A DNA stretch of 64,000 nt from a bacterium (GTDB lineage: Bacteria > Cyanobacteriota > Vampirovibrionia > Gastranaerophilales > Gastranaerophilaceae), in assembly GCA_017541465.1 (NCBI GenBank), contig JAFXYZ010000056.1:1-64000 (forward strand). The letters run 5' to 3'. A program made the translations under genes and the position numbers. Of the stretch, positions 26,099 to 26,736 are shown in pieces (position 1 is the first letter of the stretch; each line of letters starts with the position of its first letter). The notes beneath the pieces are model-generated. The model saw only the letters and a list, made by a program, of their open reading frames with translations. It did no database searches and was not told the DNA's origin.

Positions 26099-26638
26099 TT
26101 ATTCAACATTCAAATCTTTAATATTTAAAATATTCTCTTCACTACCCCAATTTATGTCATACAAATTATTTTTTACAAATTTATGAAAAGAGGAATATTC
26201 CCAATCTTTAACACTTTTAACATACCCGTGTTTAACAGGATTAAAGTGAACATAATCAATATTTCTGTTTAATTCATCTTCATTCAAGATAGTATGTTCA
26301 TAAAATCTTCTTTGAAAAATACCTTTTTCTCTTTTATTTTTGTATCCCAAAGCAAGTTCGGTGTAGGTTGGGCATACCTGCCCAACATTTCTTGAAAAAT
26401 AATATTTAACAGAAGAAATAATTTTTGGATATTCATTAATATTTTCAGGATTTAAAATTAAATGAATATGATCAGGCAAAACACAAATGGCAATTATTTC
26501 AAATTTATAATTTGACATTGTGTTTTTAAACGCAGTTCTTAAAATCTCGATATTATCAATAAAAACAGGAATACGATTATAACTTGCGATAACAATATGA
26601 ACAAAACTATTTTGGATATAGGCTCTTCTATAATTCAT
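26099..26638 (-). CDS. REP-associated tyrosine transposase (RAYT, Y1_Tnp/HUH family)
   Basis: This 179-residue single-strand DNA transposase has the HUH motif PDHIHLIL at 55-62 and a candidate nucleophile tyrosine in SVKYYFSR (76-83). The family signature KREKGIFQRRFYEH...NEDELNRNIDYVHFNPVKHGYVKSVKDWEYSSFHKFVK fills the second half. Residues 85-92 (VGQVCPTY) are encoded by one whole 24-nt palindrome, the same sequence that stands inverted 30 bases upstream of the gene. RAYTs of this kind are thought to spread such palindromes. The -10 TATAAT lies only seven bases before the ATG, so the mRNA may be leaderless. A prepilin remnant lies on the other side of the upstream palindrome. Confidence 0.92.
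   Translation of the reverse strand: MNYRRAYIQNSFVHIVIASYNRIPVFIDNIEILRTAFKNTMSNYKFEIIAICVLPDHIHLILNPENINEYPKIISSVKYYFSRNVGQVCPTYTELALGYKNKREKGIFQRRFYEHTILNEDELNRNIDYVHFNPVKHGYVKSVKDWEYSSFHKFVKNNLYDINWGSEENILNIKDLNVE
26363..26386 (-). repeat. 24-nt palindrome inside the RAYT gene
   Basis: GTAG, then stem GTTGGGCA/TGCCCAAC with loop TACC (plus strand). It is an exact reverse complement of the copy at 26668 and is translated as eight in-frame codons. Confidence 0.92.
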
Positions 26639-26645
26639 GAACCAA

Positions 26646-26651
26646 TTATAC
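26646..26651 (-). promoter_or_regulatory. -10 element of RAYT, next to the start codon
   Basis: Minus strand ATATGGTATAATTGG: an extended -10 TGGTATAAT ending seven bases before the ATG at 26638, so a transcript would start at or next to the start codon. Confidence 0.5.
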
Positions 26652-26667
26652 CATATTCTGATGATTG

Positions 26668-26691
26668 TTGGGCAGGTATGCCCAACCTACT
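26668..26691 (+). repeat. 24-nt palindrome upstream of RAYT
   Basis: Stem GTTGGGCA/TGCCCAAC, loop GGTA, then CTAC. It is inverted relative to the copy inside the RAYT and identical to it in sequence. Confidence 0.92.
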
Positions 26692-26736
26692 ACTGTGACT
26701 GTAAAGTTTTGCGTGAAGGTGCGATAAATTATTAAT
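26692..26736 (+). pseudogene. Prepilin 3'-end remnant
   Basis: The frame reads YCDCKVLREGAINY and then TAA. Prepilins 3 and 5 end in CACKVLREGAMNY and CQVLREGAINYY, so this is the tail of a lost prepilin gene on the plus strand. The match begins directly after the palindrome next to the RAYT; nothing of the 5' part is left. It was probably deleted when the palindrome/RAYT unit arrived or rearranged. Confidence 0.75.

Follow-up and report, generated by a model that had tools for sequence, protein, structure and literature searches.

A RAYT gene of Gastranaerophilaceae carries its own REP in frame and appears to double as a substrate of its enzyme

Results

We analyzed a window of 64,000 nucleotides from a Gastranaerophilaceae genome (assembly GCA_017541465.1, contig JAFXYZ010000056.1). 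On its minus strand, an open reading frame at 26099..26638, rayt, encodes a TnpA-REP-like Y1 transposase of 179 amino acids. A domain search assigned the product to Pfam Y1_Tnp (E = 6e-12). Its nearest PDB chain by sequence is 4ER8, the TnpA-REP of Escherichia coli (E = 4.6e-23, with the runner-up chain at 4e-4), which is likewise the top fold match of the protein's structure model; both the E-values and the fold comparison place the enzyme nearer to TnpA-REP than to the IS200/IS605 transposases. The hallmarks of the Y1 family are present: an HUH motif (H57-I58-H59, 26462..26470, minus strand) and a single catalytic tyrosine (Y129, 26252..26254, minus strand) that aligns with Y115 of 4ER8, both invariant in our alignment of homologs. 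The first-pass annotation of the gene as a RAYT is therefore well founded. In E. coli TnpA-REP, W94-Q95/R104 form the GTAG-contact motif (PMC6006769); here, Q109 is present, F108 stands in place of the tryptophan and L118 occupies the position of R104, while the tryptophan is retained in the homologs of types E and F described below.

Alignment and model confidence delimit a variable loop at codons 84-107 (26318..26389, minus strand), which is bordered in the model by a helix (residues 67-85) and a strand (residues 112-117). The corresponding loop of E. coli TnpA-REP is short and leads directly into W94-Q95. The quality of the model is moderate (pLDDT 67.5), and residues 87-107, where the pLDDT falls below 50, form a poorly predicted loop. 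Because this loop lies between the helix and the putatively GTAG-contacting Q-motif, a peptide within it sits between the parts of the protein that are expected to touch the REP, the contact itself being putative.

The loop houses a palindromic element that recurs upstream of the gene: positions 26363-26387 and 26666-26690 are perfect reverse complements over 25 nt, spaced 278 nt apart. The embedded element (26363..26386, plus strand, antisense to rayt) consists of a GTAG tag (26363-26366) and a stem-loop (26367-26386). Read on the gene strand it is GTTGGGCAGGTATGCCCAACCTAC, an 8-bp stem with a 4-nt loop (20 nt) followed by CTAC, the complement of the tag. Its codons, GTT GGG CAG GTA TGC CCA ACC TAC, encode VGQVCPTY in frame as residues 85-92. 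What had been described as a complete 24-nt palindrome is thus an in-frame REP with that translation, and its 8-bp stem, 4-nt loop and tag do not make a perfect 24-nt palindrome. The upstream REP (26667..26690, minus strand, sense to rayt) has its stem-loop at 26667-26686 and its GTAG tag at 26687-26690, and its stem begins 28 nt before the ATG; the inverted exact copy previously noted there is confirmed. The pattern GTTGGGCN6GCCCAAC matches twice in the window against 0.06 matches expected, which excludes a chance origin of the pair. Pattern searches of the whole genome found 44 palindrome sites with at most one mismatch and none for a reversed control pattern, so that the RAYT is flanked by a REP that is also dispersed in its genome. 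By the usage of PMC3733652, the element counts as a GTAG-tagged REP and, lying in frame and wholly inside an intact open reading frame, as an intragenic one.

The upstream REP, the N-terminal half of rayt and the embedded REP together form a REPIN-like cassette of 328 nt (26363..26690, minus strand), running from GTAG to CTAC. As in REPINs, the two REPs are inverted, their tags are outermost and a hairpin is predicted by folding: as single-stranded DNA, the cassette closes on a 25-bp terminal stem (z = -8.3). The predicted fold of the same region as RNA includes the REP-REP duplex (z = -6.1). The genome has a second RAYT (L001, G000:C25:34658-35182). Its own flanks are of the TTTCCA type, while its embedded REP has an AGGAAT loop and belongs to the type most frequently dispersed in this genome (about 14 copies).

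To place the gene among its homologs we compared 131 distinct RAYTs of the gut bacteria Gastranaerophilales and 20 of cyanobacteria, gathered by searches of the family, order and phylum, all from assembled genomes and mostly from MAGs. A REP occupies the same protein loop, bounded by F[ST][KR]N on its N-terminal side and [FW]QRR on its C-terminal side, in 63 of the 131. Sixty belong to types A-F, 54 with a perfect 8+4 stem-loop and six more with a decayed REP; the remaining three (type G) carry a longer REP of a different class in another reading frame. The decayed palindromes, six or so copies, include those of L005, L060 and L068. Every embedded copy runs antisense to its gene. Embedded REPs are absent from all 20 cyanobacterial RAYTs, most of which are REP-flanked outside the gene; the only internal hairpin among them (L237) was by inspection a GCGATCGC-type repeat and was rejected as a REP. 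The arrangement is thus unusual, as had been supposed, without being a one-off.

In a tree rooted on the cyanobacterial RAYTs, types A-F form one clade with moderate support (SH 83) and type G falls separately, which amounts to two changes. A single clade of all carriers including type G is disfavoured (AU test, p = 0.013), and type G uses a different reading frame. On this tree, embedded REPs arose twice, once in the lineage of types A-F, for which support is moderate, and once in lineage G. Every sampled member of the A-F clade retains the embedded REP. The placement of the upstream REP is also conserved, with its stem about 45-50 nt before the ATG in homologs and its inverted orientation kept. 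Across types A-F, the V, G, P and T of VG..xPTY are conserved, while the middle residues vary with the upstream REP. Relatives of lineage G that have no REP are about 8-10 residues shorter at the loop, as insertion would predict. In lineage A-F, the loop of REP-less relatives differs in both residues and length, and a simple insertion is not readable. The expectation that residues 85-92 would be missing in relatives is accordingly borne out for lineage G, whereas in A-F the loop has been remodelled instead. In the alignment, homologs without the DNA palindrome do not retain the eight residues, contrary to the possibility, raised at the outset, that all homologs share them.

Embedded and upstream REPs are matched within each gene. 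Own pairs agree at a mean of 22.8 of 24 nt, against 18.7 with shuffled partners (maximum 20.2 in 2000 shuffles), and this match is seen across no fewer than five stem families. In 41 of 48 pairs the first-arm stems do not differ at all, and in L146 the two REPs are identical over 31/31 nt. Conservation acts at the DNA level: where the amino acid is the same, codon identity is about 96% inside the embedded REP and 63% in the rest of the gene, with inside and outside values of.956 and.627 for type A,.963 and.659 for type B and.889 and.564 for types E and F. Different REP types occupy one syntenic place, type D in L070 and type A in L094, and L210 (type B) has the flanks of L070; the upstream and embedded REPs of L094 agree in type, as do those of L210. 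Several type-B genomes hold just two copies of the type-B REP in all, the upstream and the embedded one, and genome-wide homogenisation is therefore not needed for the match. E/F REPs are abundant (3-49 copies) in genomes with E/F RAYTs. Covariation between single bases of the tag and the loop was suggestive in tables and not significant on phylogenetically independent pairs. Self-insertion, also proposed in the first-pass annotation, is a plausible origin, most clearly in lineage G; a single recent event in the window's gene is wrong, because the REP is an old one that is fixed throughout a lineage of about 60 genes and has changed along with the upstream REP. Separately, L112 (G392:C9) has a full type-D REP beside a truncated type-A REP within one gene, possibly a step in the switching of REP types.

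In carriers, the embedded REP has replaced the antisense REP downstream of the gene. Among RAYTs that lack an embedded REP, 44 of 64 have an antisense REP within 130 nt downstream; among carriers, 4 of 61 do (Fisher 2e-13, uncorrected for phylogeny, a value that overstates the independent evidence because carriers form two clades, with about two transitions). The comparison still indicates that carriers keep the inverted pair, its right-hand member now inside the gene. L020, a RAYT gene that lacks an embedded REP, is preceded at about 73 nt by two REPs that have fused to form a perfect hairpin of 23 bp and so make up a compact REPIN.

The REP-bounded N-terminal half is also found detached from its gene. 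L185, in a related genome, is a 325-nt unit from GTAG to CTAC that is 97% identical to the full gene in the same genome (G318), and outside the unit the two loci are unrelated (24-40%). It is the only detached copy with both ends exact; L215 has the right end exact only. No detached cassette of this type was found in the window's genome, and no empty site for L185 was found in 57 relatives of its genome. The stretch beside the detached cassette (L185:336-640) has many partial copies in related genomes and is probably another small repeat family. Conversely, two genes have lost the N-terminal half in situ: by comparison with syntenic L055, L077 retains one REP and the C-terminal half, and so does L220 by comparison with syntenic L070 and L094. 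In L055, the segment missing from L077 begins at another antisense REP farther upstream. Slippage deletion without the RAYT could explain L077 and L220, because the palindromic REP cores are also direct repeats.

Broken carrier genes break at the embedded REP. Their fragments end from -4 to about +50 nt around it, many exactly at its edges, with alignment ends uncertain by several nt. The 5′ pieces end at +9 (L207), +12 (L209), +20 (L208), +24 (L185), +24-26 (L215), about +25-49 (L184), +31-33 (L187) and +38 (L206). The 3′ pieces start at 0 (L217, L222 and L079), +1 (L077), +6 (L188), +8 (L221), +12 (L078), +13 (L216), +17 (L196), +29 (L190), +36 (L218 and L219) and 0-53 (L220); L217 has a different REP at its break. 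In genome G158, the two halves of a type-F gene, L209 (C10) and L221 (C37), lie on two contigs and are parted within the loop of the embedded hairpin.

We also considered recombination at the embedded REP, as conflict between trees of the N- and C-terminal halves might indicate. The log-likelihood differences are 406 and 224 in carriers and 378 and 208 in non-carriers, and control trees from odd and even codons conflict as well (170-180). A dip in distance correlation at residues 115-130 occurs in carriers and non-carriers alike. Because non-carriers show a conflict of the same strength, it gives no support to such recombination. One RAYT, L186 (G073:C4), which has several REPs within and around it, shares 90% identity with type-A L055 in its C-terminal half but not in its N-terminal half.

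Discussion

In our view, the embedded palindrome is probably the cognate REP of this RAYT, relocated into the gene as the right-hand partner of a REPIN-like cassette that spans the N-terminal half. The embedded REP would serve, or would until recently have served, as the inverted counterpart of the upstream REP; in related RAYTs, a downstream REP takes this role. The unit with the N-terminal half therefore has the architecture of a REPIN: an inverted pair with its tags outermost that, as single-stranded DNA, can close into one extended hairpin. The encoded peptide would be tolerated by the loop, which separates the hairpin-contacting helix from the Q-motif. The pair would stay matched because both REPs must suit the same RAYT, because REPs replace each other there, either by conversion or when a new one inserts into its predecessor, or for both reasons. 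The N-terminal half may then occasionally be copied or lost as a REP-bounded cassette, and the gene may break at the embedded REP.

Since the embedded REP matches the upstream copy and broken genes break there, rayt appears, on sequence grounds, to double as the substrate of its own enzyme. We infer that the RAYT acts on the embedded REP, that selection keeps the pair, and that the copying and loss events stem from catalysis by the RAYT and not from ordinary recombination or from slippage during replication of palindromes. More tentatively, and with considerable doubt, action on the pair might copy or remove the N-terminal half, spreading a transposase-derived REPIN while disabling the source gene, a built-in limit on activity.

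The main rival holds that REPs entered the only dispensable stretch, the loop, of a small protein that lies beside a source of REPs, and have no role there; ongoing conversion or reinsertion would maintain the match to the upstream REP, and the fragility of palindromes would cause the breaks. The loop's variable length and predicted lack of structure suit such a tolerated parasite, as do the decayed palindromes, the arrangement in L112, where a newer REP seems to have been set next to an older one, and the intragenic REPs already known in loops of unrelated proteins (PMC3733652). However, the retention of the REP by all sampled A-F members and the carriers' loss of the downstream antisense REP seem more than tolerance, and type-B genomes with only two copies offer no donor REP from which reinsertion could occur. 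On balance we regard this rival as rather unlikely.

Autoregulation, in which 25-bp REP-REP pairing in the mRNA around the start codon, or binding of the RAYT to hairpins in its own mRNA or single-stranded DNA, would limit the RAYT, is improbable. The RNA fold with its REP-REP duplex and the conserved upstream position (about -48) and inverted orientation are consistent with it, but self-folding of each REP competes with the duplex, and RAYTs without an embedded REP keep a downstream partner that would not similarly enclose the start codon. Protein-level selection for the peptide VG..xPTY, which REP-like DNA would merely follow, accounts for the conserved V, G, P and T but is highly improbable, given synonymous positions conserved far beyond the rest of the gene, residues missing in homologs without the palindrome, a different peptide in another frame in lineage G and middle residues that change along with the upstream REP.

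A relocated right-hand REP can be set against known systems. The IS200/IS605 elements (IS608, ISDra2) have the same fold, and their hairpin ends are acted on in single-stranded DNA. Those hairpin ends lie outside the transposase gene, and the structure closest to the present RAYT is instead that of TnpA-REP (4ER8). The arrangement is a variant of the known RAYT-REP system, which accounts for its parts (PMC2817692, PMC3116915, PMC8266576). Like the RAYT/TnpA-REP systems and REPtrons (Nunvar 2010, PMC2817692; PMC6006769; PMC8266576), it pairs a Y1 HUH transposase with flanking, GTAG-tagged cognate REPs that are also dispersed in the genome and co-evolve with the RAYT; unlike there, the right-hand REP lies within the coding sequence rather than downstream. 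REPINs (Bertels and Rainey, PMC3116915) are likewise inverted REP pairs that are able to fold into a single long hairpin and that spread as units, whereas the unit here is about 325 nt long and has the N-terminal half of the RAYT gene itself as its spacer. Intragenic GTAG/CGTC REPs and the Rickettsia palindromic elements (PMC3733652) also place a palindromic repeat in frame within an ORF, probably in a loop. The known cases listed there are in unrelated genes, mostly at scattered sites, in contrast to a cognate REP at one fixed site in the RAYT, matched to the flanking REP; the legend to Figure 8 of that paper notes only REPs that overlap the ends of RAYT genes. In the open-access papers searched, which do not cover every RAYT publication, we found no report of a REP inside a RAYT gene as its right-hand REP.

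How REPs are copied and why bacteria keep RAYTs are open questions. A cognate REP within the gene joins enzyme and substrate in one co-evolving sequence, and L185, L077 and L220 offer readable traces of REP-bounded copying and excision. The carriers also provide a natural set of matched enzyme-REP pairs, with at least five stem families and one long REP, that allows direct tests of specificity and of the use of inverted pairs. On the more tentative reading, in which action on the pair disables the source gene, the enzyme's recognition site would divide its own gene, and the evolution of the REP would be bound by the reading frame, because the site is translated.
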